Source: a virus. From it: a stretch of DNA of 58,266 nt. The notes under the pieces were generated by a model. That model saw only the letters and a list, made by a program, of their open reading frames with translations, did not search any database and had not been told where the DNA came from. The translations under genes were made by a program, and so were the position numbers. The stretch is from the IMG/VR virus record IMGVR_UViG_3300042924_001589, positions 1 through 58,266 of that record. One strand, 5' to 3'. Within the stretch, counting starts at the first letter, position 1, and every line of letters starts with the position of its first letter. Below, piece after piece: positions 17,824 through 23,082 of this stretch.

Positions 17824-18503
17824 ATTAGGGTCGAGGTTGAGAATAAGAACTGCCTAGTAAGCCGCGCGGTACAGCGTATATATATACACCATGCCGAGGG
17901 GCTTCAATAGCCCCGAGGCATAACCCCCTGCAAACAGTACTGACTTAATACAGACTTTACGTTGGAATACCCGGGGGTTCTTAGGGGGGATTTCCCTCGA
18001 TTTTAGCATGCTACCCCCCCTTGACAAGAAATTCAACAAGAGTTTTTTCACAAGTAATCCTAATTAGATTCATGTAGTTAGGAGATTCAGTAGGCAGTTT
18101 TATACGATTTCACTTTGCGTTCACCTAGTGGATATAGGTATGAACGATGTGTGTACGTTGTACGTACATCACATACAGACGCTACGCGTCTTTCTGCACA
18201 AATACCCCCCGTGGGGTAGGGGTTCCTATGACTTTATTGCAAATAAAAAAGGGGAACTGCCTGTAGGAATAGGGTGTGGTTTTTAAACAACGGGGTGGGG
18301 GTTGGAGTTACAAGCTGTAGTGAGGGGAATAGTGTACGGGTCGCGCGCGGGTACCGTCACGCGCAGCGGGGGGTCGGGGGTATGTCCAGACGCGCGCCAG
18401 CGTCACGCGAAGCGGGTAGGGGTGATTTCTTTGAGAATTCTTTGACGTCTCCAGGGCGAGACTGGCAGTTGCTGTGAAATTTCACAACTGTCCGCAGAGT
18501 GGT
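17824..18503. other. Non-coding region between TerL and the first early gene
   Basis: No convincing gene. It holds a 12-base palindrome GTATATATATAC (17876-17887), a GA-bulged hairpin (17892-17920), the palindrome TGTACGTACA (18159-18168), a tight hairpin AGACGC-TAC-GCGTCT (18177-18191), and two degenerate G-rich repeats of the form GTCACGCGMAGCGGG near 18354 and 18399. A 65-residue minus-strand frame (17854-18051) lacks a convincing coding character. Late-gene promoters reading leftward probably lie here but I cannot place one. Confidence 0.6.
17892..17920 (-). other. GA-bulged hairpin in the TerL leader
   Basis: TGCC-GA-GGGGCT, loop TCAAT, AGCCCC-GA-GGCA. The outer and inner stems pair exactly and flank a symmetric GA/GA internal loop. 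On the minus strand the internal loop becomes UC/UC. It is located about 70 bases before the TerL start. It could be a regulatory or processing element. Confidence 0.5.
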
Positions 18504-18518
18504 CATAACATTGTTATG
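18504..18518. promoter_or_regulatory. CATAACATTGTTATG palindrome, copy 1
   Basis: Perfect 15-base dyad, located 12 bases upstream of the -35 of the promoter at 18530. First of nine copies confined to 18.5-27.9 kb. Probable protein-binding site. Confidence 0.75.
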
Positions 18519-18529
18519 CAAAAAAGTGC

Positions 18530-18558
18530 TTGCATATGTATATACATATGAGAGAATA
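18530..18558 (+). promoter_or_regulatory. Probable early promoter with spacer dyad
   Basis: TTGCAT (18530-18535), then a spacer that lies within the perfect palindrome CATATGTATATACATATG (18533-18550), then a weak -10 (GAGAAT or AGAATA, about 18552-18558). It aligns well with the consensus promoter at 19869 through TATGTATATACAT. It would transcribe the gene at 18645. Confidence 0.6.
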
Positions 18559-18644
18559 GCGAAGCGGTAGGTTCACCCTGTCGCTTGCTCTGTAAAAATC
18601 TGGAATTGGCGCGGATTCACCACACAACCATGGGGAATCCGAAA

Positions 18645-19127
18645 ATGACTATCAACATAAAGCCCGTAATTACCGCCTTTGACGCGACCGTGAAAGCACA
18701 CGGCTCTTTCAAGGCGAAAGTCCTCGAATTGTATTCGGGATGCAAGGCCGCCTCTGACTACCTTGCGCGACGCAAGGCCGTGAATGAGGCGATTGATAAG
18801 GCCGTGTCCGATAAGGGCAAGGCCTCAAAGGTAAAGGCCGCGATTAACACGGTATTAAACCGTGACGTTCTCGCGGCCGCTAACATCAAACTGGTAGCCC
18901 GCAAAGGCGGCCGCAAGGCCGCACCAAAGGCGACACCAAAGGCCGCGACCAGTACCGCGAAAGGCGGTAAGGCCGCGACCAGTACCGCAACGATTCAGGC
19001 CGCAACGCCTACCGATTTTCTCTCGGTGGTGTCGGCATGGGTAGCGGGAAAGAGTAAGGCCGAATTGACCTCGATGCGTTCGCGTATCGATGGCCTGTTC
19101 GCTTCTGCAATCGTCAATAGCAAGTAA
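18645..19127 (+). CDS. Ala/Lys-rich early protein of unknown function
   Basis: 160 residues from ATG 18645, chosen over in-frame starts at 18585 and 18630 because GGGGAA lies 8 bases upstream and the upstream residues look non-coding. N-terminal 90 residues are helical (FDATVKAHGSFKAKVLELYSG...). The middle (about 95-125) is a histone-H1-like tail with repeated 'PKAATSTAKGGKAATSTA'. The C-terminus is a helical 'DFLSVVSAWVAGKSKAELTS'. The tail suggests nucleic-acid binding, but no family is recognised. It stands alone between a promoter and a strong terminator on the strand opposite to TerS and TerL. Confidence 0.7.
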   Translation: MTINIKPVITAFDATVKAHGSFKAKVLELYSGCKAASDYLARRKAVNEAIDKAVSDKGKASKVKAAINTVLNRDVLAAANIKLVARKGGRKAAPKATPKAATSTAKGGKAATSTATIQAATPTDFLSVVSAWVAGKSKAELTSMRSRIDGLFASAIVNSK

Positions 19128-19159
19128 AAACTAAAACGTCCGCGCCGATTCCATCACCA

Positions 19160-19192
19160 AGCCCCTAGGATTCACGTCCTAGGGGCTTTTTG
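19160..19192 (+). terminator. Rho-independent terminator
   Basis: AGCCCCTAGGA (19160-19170) pairs over 11 bases with TCCTAGGGGCT (19177-19187) around TTCACG, followed by TTTTTGCTTTTT. It ends the transcript of the 18645 gene, just before TerS, which converges from the other side. Confidence 0.92.
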
Positions 19193-19199
19193 CTTTTTG

Positions 19200-19214
19200 C
19201 ATAACATTGTTATG
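19200..19214. promoter_or_regulatory. CATAACATTGTTATG palindrome, copy 2 (contains TerS stop)
   Basis: With flanking G and C it is a perfect 17-base dyad at 19199-19215. The TAA stop of the minus-strand TerS gene (19210-19212 on the plus strand) is part of it. It follows the terminator tail of the 18645 gene. Confidence 0.75.
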
Positions 19215-19770
19215 CGGAATCGCTCTCCGATTCCTCGCCATCCTCGCTGTCATCGCACTCGATGACGTCATCCTCATCATCCGTTTCGTCAGGGCTGACA
19301 GGCGCTTGCACTAACGCAGACAGACGGGCGATCAGTTCGCTCTCCACCTCGGCAGACGGACGCATGACGTTCGCCACGTTCACGTTCACCTGCTGACTGC
19401 CAGTCTCGATCAGTTTCGATGCCCTCGCCAGAATCGATAGGGCAGACACACGAGAGGCAGGCGGGCTGTTGCCATCACTTGCCTCCTCCTTCAGACGGGT
19501 GAGCGTCCACTCCCGCAGCCCGATGCTCTGCTCCAGCAACGTCTTCTCGCTCTTTCGCTTCAGCCCCTCGATGTGTCGCTGCACCCTCGGATCGCCCATC
19601 AGACGGGCGGCAGCAGAATGTATAGACGCTTTCTTCGCATTGTCTCCAGGGCGATACGCTGTGGCATACGCCTGCACCGGACGGTCGCCCTTCACCACTA
19701 ACTCGCAGAACTTGATGGCATTTTTAGTAAGAGGCTTCAGCCCTTGCATAGTCGGTTCATTGCTCGGCAT
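19210..19770 (-). CDS. terS: Terminase small subunit
   Basis: 186 residues. The N-terminal part 'LTKNAIKFCELVVKGDRPVQ' followed by AYATAYRPGDNAKKASIHSAAARLMGDPRVQRHIEGLKRK matches the DNA-binding helix-turn-helix of Terminase_2-type small subunits. A central helical region (about 80-150) would oligomerise and the C-terminus is strongly acidic ('DETDDEDDVIECDDSEDGEESESDS'-like). It recognises phage DNA and stimulates TerL. It is separated from TerL by about 1.4 kb holding a plus-strand gene, which is unusual. Confidence 0.8.
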   Translation of the reverse strand: MPSNEPTMQGLKPLTKNAIKFCELVVKGDRPVQAYATAYRPGDNAKKASIHSAAARLMGDPRVQRHIEGLKRKSEKTLLEQSIGLREWTLTRLKEEASDGNSPPASRVSALSILARASKLIETGSQQVNVNVANVMRPSAEVESELIARLSALVQAPVSPDETDDEDDVIECDDSEDGEESESDSA

Positions 19771-19868
19771 GACGTTATGACCTTATAACGAATTTCGGAT
19801 GGTCGGAATGTACAGGGTGTGATAGGCGGCAGGCAATAGGCAGACGGGTGGATAAGTGTCAGTGGGTA

Positions 19869-19897
19869 TTGACATATGTATATACATTTGCTATAAT
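19869..19897 (+). promoter_or_regulatory. Consensus sigma70 promoter with spacer dyad
   Basis: TTGACA (19869-19874), 17-base spacer, TATAAT (19892-19897): an exact consensus match. The spacer contains TATGTATATACAT, shared with the 18530 promoter. It diverges from TerS and reads into a region with no normal gene for about 575 bases. Confidence 0.93.
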
Positions 19898-19930
19898 GGC
19901 GGAGCCAAAGTAGGAAATCACTTAACTCTA

Positions 19931-19945
19931 CATAACATTGTTATG
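19931..19945. promoter_or_regulatory. CATAACATTGTTATG palindrome, copy 3
   Basis: Perfect dyad about 25 bases downstream of the expected start site of the 19869 promoter, extended to 17 bases by flanking A and T. A bound protein here would block early elongation. Confidence 0.78.
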
Positions 19946-20141
19946 TGAACTTCTACCGGTAGGCGGGATGGGCGAGCCTAGTTATGGGCGGTGACCCCTG
20001 AAACGATCTGGAAGAGGATCGGGACAGACTGACAATCTGTTCGGGCGTGAAGGCTGCTAGGTAGAAAGACGCGATAGCGTCTGTATGCGTAGCGAAGCGT
20101 AGCGCGCTGGCGTGTGGGCTGCACACGCAAGGAGTGAAGTC

Positions 20142-20183
20142 GTGACAAGTCGGTTTCTGTGTACACACACAAAAAGGTATTAG
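20142..20183 (+). CDS. Possible 13-residue leader peptide
   Basis: GTG start with AAGGAG seven bases upstream; the context AAGGAGTGAAG is the same as that before the amidoligase and the 20730 gene. It encodes MTSRFLCTHTKRY and ends at TAG. It lies just after a strong hairpin within the leader region. The RBS similarity is the only support. Confidence 0.3.
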   Translation: MTSRFLCTHTKRY

Positions 20184-20355
20184 ACAGCCCTTTAAGGGTA
20201 GACGATTGACGATAGATGGACTGAGGTCTGTCAGGTCACACCACCGGATAGCCGGTTCGATCGTGTTAAGCCTGTGTACATAGACGCCTAGATGACTCAC
20301 TCCGTAGCCGATACGGACAGGCAATGTATGTCCTGCGGCGTTAATGGCTGAAGCG

Positions 20356-20370
20356 CATAACAATGTTATG
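20356..20370. promoter_or_regulatory. CATAACAATGTTATG palindrome, copy 4
   Basis: Perfect dyad (CATAACA-A-TGTTATG), flanked by GCG and TCGC, within the non-coding leader and about 110 bases before the first gene. Confidence 0.72.
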
Positions 20371-20416
20371 TCGCTGCCACCAGTATCCGCATATATCGCT
20401 GTACCGCATTATTGGA

Positions 20417-20451
20417 CAGCCTAGGCTGCCTTGTTGGGAGATAGGGCAGCC
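20417..20451 (+). promoter_or_regulatory. Mutually exclusive hairpins before the 20481 gene
   Basis: CAGCCTAGGCTG (20417-20428) is self-complementary. Its right half, as GGCTGCC (20424-20430), can instead pair with GGCAGCC (20445-20451). TTGTTG (20431-20436) could further pair with CAACAA just before the RBS. Such competing folds are seen in attenuators and riboswitch expression platforms; no ligand class is recognised. Confidence 0.4.
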
Positions 20452-20480
20452 GTGGGTGTTCAACAAACCGGAGAGACGCA

Positions 20481-20702
20481 ATGCAACTGGATAAAGGTAC
20501 TTACGGTCGCCTCCAGACAGGCGGCACTACTGCCCGCGTGATGGACAACCTCCGCAACAAGGGTGCATCCCGTTGGGCAATCAAGATCAAGGGTCAGGTG
20601 ATTGTGGTGGGGGACAAACTCCACGCCGTCGCCCTGTATGAGAAGGCAGTGGCTCTGGGTGCAGAGCCTGCCCTAGTTCGCAGCGGCAAAACCGTTGCAT
20701 AA
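20481..20702 (+). CDS. Small early protein of unknown function
   Basis: 73 residues from ATG 20481 with GGAG upstream. 'YGRLQTGGTTARVMDNLRNKGASRWAIKIKGQVIVVGDKLHAVALYEKAVALGAEPALVRSG' suggests a compact alpha/beta protein. First normal gene after the long leader. The final codons GTT GCA TAA run into palindrome copy 5. Confidence 0.65.
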   Translation: MQLDKGTYGRLQTGGTTARVMDNLRNKGASRWAIKIKGQVIVVGDKLHAVALYEKAVALGAEPALVRSGKTVA

Positions 20703-20712
20703 CTTTGTTATG
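20698..20712. promoter_or_regulatory. CATAACTTTGTTATG palindrome, copy 5
   Basis: Arms CATAAC/GTTATG are exact, while the centre is TTT rather than ATT or AAT. It includes the TAA stop of the 20481 gene and lies just before the SD of the 20730 gene. Confidence 0.68.
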
Positions 20713-20729
20713 TGAAAGGAGTGAAGGAA

Positions 20730-21089
20730 ATGGGTATTGATTATCAGGGTTTAGTGAACAAGGCACATGACGCGGGAATGTCGGCACTCAATGCCATTGT
20801 TCCCACCCCCATGGTGGTACGAGGTGGCGTACCTGGAGGTGAACAGCGGACATGGTACGTCGATGAAGGTGCGTGTGGATTCGCATGGATCGAGTTCGCA
20901 GGTAACACTGCCTTCGGTCGATGGGCGAAGAAGGCAGGCGTGGCTCACCCGCATTACCCGAAAGGGCTGTGTGTATGGGTGAGCGAGGGTGGGCAGTCGA
21001 TTGCTCGCAAGGAAGCCTATGCCATCGCCTTCGCCAAGGTGCTTAACGAGGCGGGTATTTCAGCCCGTCCCAATTCCAGACTGGATTGA
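20730..21089 (+). CDS. Early protein of unknown function
   Basis: 119 residues from ATG 20730, chosen over GTG 20712 because AAAGGAG lies nine bases before the ATG. The sequence 'GACGFAWIEFAGNTAFGRWAKKAG' followed by 'HPHYPKGLCVWVSEGGQSIARKEAYAIAFAKVLNEAGI' reads as a compact alpha/beta domain. Similar hypothetical proteins occur in phages; no function known to me. Confidence 0.7.
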   Translation: MGIDYQGLVNKAHDAGMSALNAIVPTPMVVRGGVPGGEQRTWYVDEGACGFAWIEFAGNTAFGRWAKKAGVAHPHYPKGLCVWVSEGGQSIARKEAYAIAFAKVLNEAGISARPNSRLD

Positions 21090-21097
21090 GGTGACGT

Positions 21098-21265
21098 ATG
21101 ACGCGCAAAGTAAGTAATCAGATTCTCGAAATGATCGAGGACGGCACCTTGAAAAAAGACATCGTGATCCTTGCCTGTCTCCAATACATGAGTGAGGACG
21201 AGGTGGCAGACATGGCTCGTATGAATGAGTTTCTGTGCGAGGAGGAACCAGATGATGAAGGCTAA
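21098..21265 (+). CDS. Small acidic early protein
   Basis: 55 residues, MTRKVSNQILEMIEDGTLKK then DIVILACLQYMSEDEVADMARMNEF and an acidic end. GAGGTGA precedes the start. The gene overlaps the next (21252) by 14 nt, indicating translational coupling. Predicted all-helical; function unknown. Confidence 0.6.
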   Translation: MTRKVSNQILEMIEDGTLKKDIVILACLQYMSEDEVADMARMNEFLCEEEPDDEG

Positions 21266-21452
21266 AAAGTTACAGGTGACTATCGTATTTGAGTATGACG
21301 GCATCGACAACGCGGATAGTGTCGAGGCAGACGGGTGGATCGAAGGCATCAACGAGGATTTGATGGCATTCGGCATAGCCTGTGGCGCAAACCATGTATG
21401 GGTAGACGACGCCAAGGTCGTGGAGGTGGATCGGTCTACTACCTTGTCTTGA
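21252..21452 (+). CDS. Small early protein of unknown function
   Basis: 66 residues starting at the first of two adjacent ATG codons, with GAGGAGG upstream. 'KLQVTIVFEYDGIDNADSVEADGWIEGINEDLMAFGI' suggests a small ferredoxin-like alpha/beta domain. The gene overlaps the 21098 gene at its start, and its last bases overlap the -35 of the promoter at 21449. Confidence 0.6.
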   Translation: MMKAKKLQVTIVFEYDGIDNADSVEADGWIEGINEDLMAFGIACGANHVWVDDAKVVEVDRSTTLS

Positions 21453-21476
21453 CGTATATACAAAAGAGAGTATAAT
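21449..21476 (+). promoter_or_regulatory. Sigma70 promoter before the amidoligase gene
   Basis: TTGACG (21449-21454), 16-base spacer, TATAAT (21471-21476). The spacer carries GTATATAC, as in the 18530 and 19869 promoters. Its -35 overlaps the end of the preceding gene. Confidence 0.85.
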
Positions 21477-21504
21477 TTGCGTGTTGAATAATTATTAAAC
21501 GGAA

Positions 21505-21538
21505 ACCCGCAAAGCGGGTGAACGCGGGGCTTGTCCCC
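21505..21538 (+). other. Two short hairpins in the amidoligase leader
   Basis: ACCCGC-AAA-GCGGGT (21505-21519) and GGGG-CTTGT-CCCC (21526-21538) stand in tandem before palindrome copy 6 and the SD. Tri-base-loop hairpins of this kind recur in the early region. Confidence 0.55.
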
Positions 21539-21539
21539 A

Positions 21540-21554
21540 CATAACAATGTTATG
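21540..21554. promoter_or_regulatory. CATAACAATGTTATG palindrome, copy 6
   Basis: Perfect dyad directly before AAAGGAG, the SD of the amidoligase gene, and about 65 bases downstream of the 21449 promoter. Confidence 0.78.
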
Positions 21555-21570
21555 CAAAGGAGTGAAGACC

Positions 21571-23034
21571 ATGCATATTTTCGGTTCTAAGTATTTCGCT
21601 TGGGCTTTTGACGATCCGCATGACCTATCGCGTTTCAGGCAGCGATCGTTTATCAATGCCTACCTAAAACTGTACAGCGAGAATCGTGAGACTGCTGTCA
21701 GTCTCATGGAGAAGTTCGTCAACTCCACGCCATCCTATCGTACCAACGAGTACCAAGGTACTGACGGGCGGCACAACATCACACGCCATCACTGCGTGAC
21801 TTTCATCCTGCGACCGTTGACCGACGCCTGCAAGGACGAGGGCTTCATGCTGCCATGGGTGATGTACCAAAACGAAGTCAGTTATCGGGATGAGTCCATC
21901 TCGACAGATCGACTACGCCTGTGGCATGGGTTCTGCAACGAACCCAATGTATGCGATGGCGACGATGCTGTTGAATACATGCAGAACGCAATCGGCATGT
22001 TCACCTGCGAGGACTGCGGTCACCCCACCGCAGAAGATGACTGTCCCAGCGTGGGCGACTACACCAGCATCTGCACGAGCTGCTGCGACATTAGTTATAC
22101 ATGGTCAGACTACGAGGATCGCTACATCCACAACGACGATGTATGCACTGCCCTCGATCAGTATGGCAATGGGGTGTCCATCAGTTCTAGCAACACTGGT
22201 GATTTCACCTATGATGAAGATCGCGAGATGTACGTCCACGACGAGTACGAGCCGCCGCTCATCCGCGATTACCACTCATCCAAGAGCAGCATCTCGTACA
22301 AGCCAGACGAGTGGACTGCTAGGTATGACCGATACCTGGGCGTCGAGTTGGAAGTCGAGTGCGTCGAGACCAGTCGCACTTCACAGGCGCAGATGATCAA
22401 GGATTACGTCGAGAACAGCGGTCATCGTCTGTTCTTCGAGCGTGATGGTTCGCTACAGAGCGGCTTTGAGATGATCACTGATCCCATGTCGCTACCCGCG
22501 CACCGTGACCTGTTCTCTTTCCTCAAGGAGCGACCGATCACTCGCGGTATGCGTAGCCACAACACCACCACTTGTGGTCTCCATGTCCATGTCAGCCGCT
22601 CCGGTCTGACTGACCTTCAAATCCAGAAGGTCGTGGCGTTCGTGAATTCGCCAGACAACGAATGGTTCATCCGCGCATTGGCTCGCCGCTACTCATCAGG
22701 TTTCTGTGTGGTCAAGTCCGACAAGAAGATCGGCAAGTCCATTCATATCGGACTCGACAGATACGAGGCAGTCAATCTCACTAACCGCCGCACTATCGAG
22801 TTCCGCATCTTCCGAGGCAGTCTCAAGTACGAGGCCGTGATTGCAGCAATCGAGTTCTGCCACGCCATACTCGAGTTCTGCAAGCCAGCCAACACTGGCA
22901 TCAACCAACTGTCAGCCGGTGCGTTCCTGACCTTCTGCTCAAAGCAGTTGGCAGCAGACACCAAAACCCTGCGAGCGTATGTATCGCAGCGCATCAGCGG
23001 ACGAGCAGAAGTAACAGAAGAAGAAGCCGCATAA
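21571..23034 (+). CDS. Amidoligase-family enzyme
   Basis: 487 residues from ATG 21571 (AAAGGAG eight to nine bases upstream; an in-frame ATG at 21547 lies inside the palindrome and is rejected). The N-terminal 250 residues hold a Cys cluster (C146, C149, C158, C168, C171, C172), probably a metal-binding ribbon. The C-terminal half matches glutamine-synthetase-like amidoligases: 'YLGVELEVE' (256-263), 'ERDGSLQSGFEMIT' (290-303), 'CGLHVHVS' (335-342), 'RTIEFRIFRG' (407-416). Such enzymes form amide bonds using ATP. The next gene is a glutamine amidotransferase, a partner known for this family. Substrate unknown. Confidence 0.85.
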   Translation: MHIFGSKYFAWAFDDPHDLSRFRQRSFINAYLKLYSENRETAVSLMEKFVNSTPSYRTNEYQGTDGRHNITRHHCVTFILRPLTDACKDEGFMLPWVMYQNEVSYRDESISTDRLRLWHGFCNEPNVCDGDDAVEYMQNAIGMFTCEDCGHPTAEDDCPSVGDYTSICTSCCDISYTWSDYEDRYIHNDDVCTALDQYGNGVSISSSNTGDFTYDEDREMYVHDEYEPPLIRDYHSSKSSISYKPDEWTARYDRYLGVELEVECVETSRTSQAQMIKDYVENSGHRLFFERDGSLQSGFEMITDPMSLPAHRDLFSFLKERPITRGMRSHNTTTCGLHVHVSRSGLTDLQIQKVVAFVNSPDNEWFIRALARRYSSGFCVVKSDKKIGKSIHIGLDRYEAVNLTNRRTIEFRIFRGSLKYEAVIAAIEFCHAILEFCKPANTGINQLSAGAFLTFCSKQLAADTKTLRAYVSQRISGRAEVTEEEAA

Positions 23035-23044
23035 CATTGTTATG
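23030..23044. promoter_or_regulatory. CATAACATTGTTATG palindrome, copy 7
   Basis: Perfect dyad that includes the TAA stop of the amidoligase gene (GCC GCA TAA C), located between amidoligase and amidotransferase. Confidence 0.76.
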
Positions 23045-23082
23045 TAAGGCTCGACAATCAAATCAACCAAGGAGTAATGACA

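Follow-up and report, generated by a model that had tools for sequence, protein, structure and literature searches.

Near the left third of a 58,266-base virus record (the window, taken here at its full length), a near-ideal promoter is followed by several hundred bases without a gene, and the question is what is made from it. Genes for terminase, portal and head run leftward and those of early type rightward, the latter side also encoding a primase-helicase at some distance, and the RNA is situated where the two directions of transcription part. The first-pass annotation had read the locus as a perfect consensus promoter driving a hairpin-rich structured RNA. The structured RNA after the promoter held up; rather than a free-standing gene, it is the leading portion of a transcript of early type and has operator-like sites built in.

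19869 to 19897, plus strand: perfect extended promoter of the sigma-70 type, TTGACA-17-TATAAT with TG before the −10 box
19904 to 20464, plus strand: large structured RNA, supported by homologs and covariation, with the strand taken from the asymmetry of G-U and A-C

Promoter and Gene-Free Stretch

The promoter sequence TTGACATATGTATATACATTTGCTATAAT agrees with the consensus at 12 of 12 positions and has a 17-nt spacer, exactly as annotated. The window has no other match to TTGACA-17-TATAAT, even when two mismatches are tolerated, a laxity at which shuffled sequences are expected to give 2.77 matches; for a perfect match, a hand estimate (2 × 58266/4^12) gives an expectation of ~0.007. The 29-mer is identical in L003, L006, L007, L010 and L011 and identical or near-identical among the relatives, and L089, a distant member, possesses a separate perfect TTGACA-17-TATAAT of its own. 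Most of a palindrome, CATATGTATATACATATG, is contained in the spacer. This palindromic spacer is common to the promoter-like sequence before the gene of protein P (18530–18557) and to the RNA promoters of relatives, and is possibly a further regulator site. A second near-consensus promoter (TTGACG-16-TATAAT, 11/12) was observed at 21449–21476 in the early-type region and is kept in L006.

From the −10 box to the ATG at 20481, 583 nt of the plus strand carry no gene, which bears out the annotated gene-free stretch. The 5′ end of the RNA was placed ~7 nt past the −10 box and its 3′ limit at the end of the last covarying helix, giving ~560 nt in the window and a range of about 490–610 nt in the family. 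The only long ORF in the stretch is antisense (19953–20363, 136 aa, TTG start); from stop to stop its frame comprises 151 codons in the window, 80 and 76 in L006, and 109 in L011. No frame is open through all members, the open frames being short, distributed over all frames and broken differently in each member. Matches at the protein level were spread simultaneously over many frames, as conserved DNA would give. A conserved protein-coding frame, which the first-pass annotation had set against its own reading, was thus not found across the members.

Members of the Family

Homologs of the region are present in 14 IMG/VR records including the window, representing nine distinct sequences. A search with the large terminase yielded 80 loci, seven of which contain the region, and further members were obtained via DNA patterns. 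The window and L003 are identical, as are L007, L010, L011, L083 and L085 to each other (over 520 nt). The window, L006, L011, L088 and L091 constitute group A and L013, L093 and L016 group B, with L089 standing apart.

A covariance model (R1, 176 positions) was built from alignment A2, leaving L089 out. Searched over 86 sources, R1 recovered L089 with 52.5 bits (E = 1.4e-14) as the only good match besides the window and L013, both of which are in the model; since the first hit to L089 came from a pattern within the core, this score is fully independent only outside the core pattern. The weaker rows were opposite-strand copies of symmetric hairpins and one palindrome. Among 34 whole virus records R1 matched ten, all of them known members, and gave no match in the other 24, which are more distant terminase relatives.

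Six DNA patterns used in a wider viral search returned only members of the same 13 records plus L095, which was rejected as it matched in a coding region and gave no R1 match. A protein search from the L089 neighbourhood found only the record of L089 itself. Nucleotide matches of the window region, L089 or L088 were absent from 50,697 phage records, and those of L088 from 72,556 plasmid records. Two named phages among the nearest by TerL, DSL-LC04 and HTVC027P, showed no R1 match in a run without positive control. In bacterial genomes the core pattern gave no matches and a loose pattern of the 3′ hairpin gave 13, none supported by R1. Applied to whole bacterial genomes, R1 gave one match at E = 9 in six genomes and none in 188, the latter run without positive control. 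A single match in 369 further-searched bacterial genomes (E = 3.9e-4 for that genome) was rejected as chance because it falls within a GTPase-like ORF and aligns to only about half of R1.

To look for an unrecognised version of the RNA, 12 long gene-free stretches from 11 TerL relatives without an R1 match were folded, and showed mixed z values between +0.64 and −4.68 over both strands. Two of these stretches, in L042 (474–1096 and 1628–2329), reach −4.68 on one strand each and are possibly other structured RNAs; R1 gave no match in L042. Within the window a gene-poor stretch extends from 17824 to 18630 between TerL and P, and its equivalent in L003 folds with z values of −4.2 and −3.1 on the two strands.

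Covariation and Strand of the Fold

The first-pass annotation had proposed looking for covarying base pairs in related phages, and these are abundant. Eight distinct sequences corresponding to window positions 20131–20464 were aligned with MAFFT (alignment A3) and the structure was derived with RNAalifold. The consensus comprises 80 pairs, 32 of which show changes on both sides. Altogether, 96.9% of 615 cells are paired, compared to 87.9% (sd 0.8) in shuffled alignments and 38.2–42.8% when partners were slid by one to three columns. Changes on both sides were counted in 70 cells versus 25.5 (sd 4.2) after shuffling, and none of 500 shuffles scored as high; these figures are not probabilities, as the structure comes from the same alignment and shuffling ignores relatedness. 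Further standard pair types showed no excess over shuffles (310/500). The clearest individual example is the outer helix 20131–20143/20292–20303, in which five of ten pairs changed on both sides, successively from G-C to A-U, A-U to U-A and C-G to G-C. In the full-length alignment of group A (A5, five sequences), 36 of 148 pairs have changes on both sides, in 60 cells versus 24.5 shuffled, and 95.0% of cells are paired versus 32.6–46.3% in slid controls. The fold is supported by nine distinct sequences, which fall into three clusters only.

In A3, 64 cells are G-U and five are A-C, an asymmetry that places the fold on the strand of the promoter. An antisense fold was considered and rejected on this count; the folding z is in addition lower for the sense strand in seven of nine members, the exceptions being L088 and L091. 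Strong covariation on the strand of the promoter and the missing coding frame, both expected of a structured noncoding RNA, support the reading as a large structured RNA.

Architecture of the RNA

As annotated, the stretch is rich in hairpins. Its minimum free energy is −233.6 kcal/mol compared to −189.5 kcal/mol (sd 7.4) for dinucleotide shuffles (z = −5.98), and all nine members folded with z between −3.05 and −6.84. The following parts were distinguished.

20048 to 20100, plus strand: peripheral helix, present in the window and missing from L006 and L011; it holds a hairpin of ~28 nt, AGAAAGAC...GTCTGTATG
20131 to 20303, plus strand: long-range helix 20131–20143/20292–20303, around the conserved CGACAAGUCGG (which the window has as GUGACAAGUCGG) and inner helices
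20152 to 20160 with 20280 to 20288, and 20175 to 20186 with 20264 to 20273, plus strand: helices inside the long-range helix
20306 to 20400, plus strand: conserved core junction of 20306–20312/20395–20400, 20334–20338/20387–20391 and the hairpin 20315–20319/20329–20333
20414 to 20461, plus strand: 3′ terminal hairpin 20414–20435/20440–20461, 19 pairs, eight with changes on both sides

The hairpin 20315–20319/20329–20333 of the core junction carries the loop GGCAAYRUA, and R1 recovered this junction in L089. The 3′ terminal hairpin is not an intrinsic terminator. A mutually exclusive pair of structures had been annotated near the end of the stretch, which we took as AGCC-UA-GGCU (20418–20427) versus GGCUGCC/GGCAGCC. 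The second pairing, part of helix 20414–20435/20440–20461, is kept with compensatory changes, whereas the first is incompletely kept in relatives (AGCCTAGGTC in L013/L016, AGCCTAGGCA in L088/L091). A conserved switch is therefore unsupported.

The ~28-nt hairpin of the peripheral helix occurs at 20063–20090 within the variable insert of the RNA, antisense at 18172–18200 in the intergenic region between TerL and P, and in the L091 RNA at a different site (~1168). It may represent a hairpin module that is recurrent or mobile. The sequence AGTGAAGTCGTGACAAG (about 20134–20150) resembles the 3′ end of 16S rRNA. This likeness was dismissed as coincidence: in relatives the sequence is GTGAAGACGCGACAAG, a difference that amounts to a compensated pair.

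Operator-Like Palindromes

The palindrome CATAACNNNGTTATG occurs in nine perfect copies in the window, all within 18504–27941, and in 11 copies with up to two mismatches compared to 1.52 expected. Such a number far above chance is what an array of repressor operators or stoperators would show.

18504 to 18518, no strand assigned: operator-like palindrome before the P gene
19200 to 19214, no strand assigned: operator-like palindrome between the P terminator and the end of TerS
19931 to 19945, no strand assigned: operator-like palindrome CATAACATTGTTATG, at +62 from the −35 box, inside the transcript
20356 to 20370, no strand assigned: CATAACAATGTTATG, the second operator-like palindrome within the RNA; group A has it, and in group B it is missing at this place
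20698 to 20712, no strand assigned: operator-like palindrome at the end of ORF73, with more copies at 21540, 23030, 24476 and 27927

Once transcribed, the palindrome at 19931–19945 would fold into a hairpin as well. For the comparison among relatives we used window positions 18504–27941, records G001, G004, G030 and G033, and G032, the record of L089. A palindrome is located +61 to +72 from the −35 box in all 14 records, belonging to one family in 13 of 13 records of groups A and B and to another in L089. The L089 record contains none of the group A/B palindromes. It has its own family, GTTACTAGTAAC, seven times, with copies at −46 and +66, and in a looser form 15 times compared to 0.28 in a Markov control. 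The same positions with different letters are what heteroimmune repressors would produce, which suggests that the palindromes are candidate operators and that a putative repressor system of changing specificity lies behind the palindrome families. Six of the 14 records also have palindromes within 50 nt upstream of the −35 box, where they are untranscribed from this promoter, and the palindromes therefore fit DNA operators better than sites acting in RNA.

Protein P and Neighbouring Genes

18645 to 19127, plus strand: gene of protein P, a basic linker between two helical segments, upstream of the RNA
19159 to 19188, plus strand: intrinsic terminator-like site closing the P transcript
20481 to 20702, plus strand: ORF73, the first gene downstream, kept in groups A and B; another gene is first in L088/L091 and in L089

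The terminator-like site after P implies that the RNA has a transcription start of its own. From 19189 to 24458 no terminator is listed on the plus strand. P is present in 13 of 13 records of groups A and B. Of the 32 terminase loci whose upstream sequence exceeds 2.4 kb, the seven with the RNA are the seven with P, and P was found in none of the 25 loci lacking the RNA; the link between P and the RNA is one of co-occurrence only. P belongs to no Pfam or PHROG family and has no significant PDB sequence match and no tblastn match in phages. Its AlphaFold model is of modest confidence (pLDDT 69) and gave no significant PDB fold match; in the underlying alignment (A4) the upstream protein of L089 was the ninth row. 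Recurrent weak matches to ribosomal small-subunit chains of bS20 (Z about 4–5) were disregarded, as mostly helical models often give such values. Roles for P as the repressor or as an RNA-binding partner were considered, with no family, sequence or fold match in favour of either. In L089 a basic protein occupies the place of P and shows no recognisable homology to it (hhalign probability 0.86%).

ORF73, whose structure model is of low confidence, directly follows the RNA in the window, L006, L011, L013, L093 and L016. In L088 and L091 this place is taken by another gene, followed in L091 by an ORF73 homolog, and in L089 by a different 85-aa gene. Further downstream an amidoligase-like gene (21547–23034) adjoins a class II glutamine amidotransferase-like gene (23077–24018).

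Possible Function of the RNA

The region probably encodes a working RNA of a new, not yet catalogued family of large structured phage RNA. Beside the promoter sequence, the fold and its strand, the conservation and the module layout, all of which can be read in the DNA, we infer early and abundant transcription, control by a repressor and a function as RNA. As to its mode of action, we lean towards an early phage RNA acting in trans, possibly together with P, over any other single explanation. In the absence of repressor, on infection or induction, the near-ideal promoter would fire early and yield large amounts of the RNA as the first part of a short transcript. The RNA would fold unaided into a compact multi-junction body, would be trimmed or kept as a stable 5′ domain, and would act as RNA rather than as message. 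Its action would most likely be in trans, directed at some machine of the host or the phage, possibly with P. A putative repressor reading the palindromes would silence both the RNA and the P gene.

That lineages have exchanged the first downstream gene and kept the RNA speaks against control of a single gene and favours trans action. The elaborate junction, which exceeds what known leaders need, and the second promoter at 21449, which would let the genes past 21.5 kb do without the leader, point in the same direction. So does the comparison of the window with L006, in which the 3′ half of the RNA (95.3% identity) is more conserved than ORF73 (90.8%), TerS (90.7%), TerL (91.0%) and P (83.3%); between the window and L011 this is untrue, the 3′ half being 73.2% identical and TerL 81.2%, so high primary-sequence conservation is limited to the closest pair. 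Against trans action, the RNA is continuous with the mRNA, no terminator precedes the first gene, and the ribosome-binding site starts within ~20 nt of the last helix. The absent terminator and the nearby ribosome-binding site are as expected of a 5′ leader and represent the main objection.

The main rival is such a leader acting in cis at the level of the operon, whose nascent RNA would bind RNA polymerase or elongation factors to make early transcription processive, or would protect or attenuate the transcript. We regard it as an appreciable possibility, clearly less probable than trans action. The fixed 5′ position on an early-type transcript, the missing terminator after the RNA and the variable first gene would all suit it, and the put RNAs of HK022 also sit downstream of early promoters (PMC9378689). 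As described there, however, put RNA has about 70 nt and two stems, and the RNA analysed here is some eight times larger. Moreover, the plus strand from 19189 to 28004 lists one terminator-like site, which has no T-run (24459–24479), and with that site and the second strong promoter at 21449 there would be little for an antiterminator to overcome.

Trans action by the early RNA can be extended to a more ambitious scheme, which we put forward tentatively and consider rather doubtful as a whole. An ornate RNA of ~560 nt, made first and in large amounts, would form, alone or with P, an early-infection ribonucleoprotein that takes over a host process and would be locked by internal repressor sites; the sequence of the lock would have changed while its position was kept, and RNA effector and immunity would have evolved as one module.

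That the RNA is a 5′ UTR controlling translation of the first gene only, like a riboswitch or thermosensor, seems unlikely. Its last helix does stop no more than about 20 nt from the Shine-Dalgarno-like sequence, but this sequence is unpaired in the consensus fold, the size is far beyond need, and the RNA persists in L088/L091 and L089, where the first gene differs. We give a similarly small chance to an immunity or antisense RNA of the P4 CI or P1 c4 kind, processed from the early leader and acting by base pairing within it. The leader lies in an apparently repressor-controlled region, and the palindromes in the leader and the downstream genes could pair as RNA; against this stand the better fit of palindromes upstream of the −35 box (6/14 records) to DNA operators, a covarying body that is far more elaborate, and the lack of any match to c4 antisense RNA (RF01695) or other Rfam families in covariance-model searches.

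A primer or pre-primer RNA at a replication origin would be reminiscent of ColE1 RNAII, which is about 550 nt long, and the similar size, the strong promoter and a change in GC skew near 17–18 kb could be read in its favour. This is very improbable, as the shift in skew coincides with the point where leftward and rightward genes diverge, a gene and no recognisable origin comes straight after the conserved end, and the phage has a primase-helicase of its own. Chance folding or an unrecognised protein gene, for which the 136-aa antisense ORF might be cited, is scarcely credible in view of the compensatory changes, the recovery of L089 and the lack of a frame open across members, and is contradicted by the covariation.

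Comparison with Known Systems

Text searches of the literature, which cannot exclude one, found no description of such an RNA. Rfam 15 searched over the whole window at gathering score gave no family matches. Membership in a known RNA family was rejected also at E up to 10, at which four members gave isolated chance matches with none common to the members. Neither GOLLD (RF02032) nor ROOL (RF03087) matched at either level, and direct searches found neither in any of four RNA-bearing records (the GOLLD controls gave five matches, none over the cut-off, and the ROOL controls held no positive). The view of the first-pass annotation that there is no evidence for membership in GOLLD or ROOL is in line with these covariance-model searches. 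Both of these RNAs assemble into homo-multimeric RNA nanocages.

In kind the RNA is nevertheless similar to these two, and to GOLLD in particular, although a member of neither; their function is given as unknown (PMC12286853). GOLLD is likewise phage-borne and large, with an elaborate covarying structure and a conserved 3′ and a less conserved 5′ part (PMC12286853). It is often found near tRNA islands, although this is no strict requirement, whereas the 58-kb window contains no tRNA genes and the RNA heads an apparently repressor-controlled transcript. ROOL is an ornate RNA borne by phages and prophages (PMC12286853), and its covariance model is of similar length (574 positions). Unlike ROOL, the RNA described here lacks neighbouring tRNAs, contains operator-like palindromes and lies beside a protein gene that co-occurs with it. 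With about 600 nt, OLE RNA is also of similar size and is a component of a ribonucleoprotein (PMC9723947), but is found in bacteria and not described there for phages, and gave no match here in the Rfam scans.

HK022 put, which may be a parallel in function, shares with our RNA the location downstream of an early phage promoter (PMC9378689) and differs from it in size and architecture, with two stem-loops in ~70 nt compared to a multi-junction core in ~560 nt. The palindromes recall the operators and stoperators of Cluster A mycobacteriophages, which comprise numerous repeats of a site, a minority of them in promoters, with a consensus specific to each phage group (PMC6550527). The candidate operators of the window differ from these in being perfect palindromes located mostly at boundaries of early-type genes, two of them inside the RNA.

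Very few phage RNAs of such size and complexity are known. The RNA described here offers handles that GOLLD and ROOL lack, namely a defined strong promoter, a presumed repressor switch, P as an adjacent candidate partner, and a conserved junction core that can be searched for. With these, the role of large phage RNAs would become directly approachable by deletion and pull-down.
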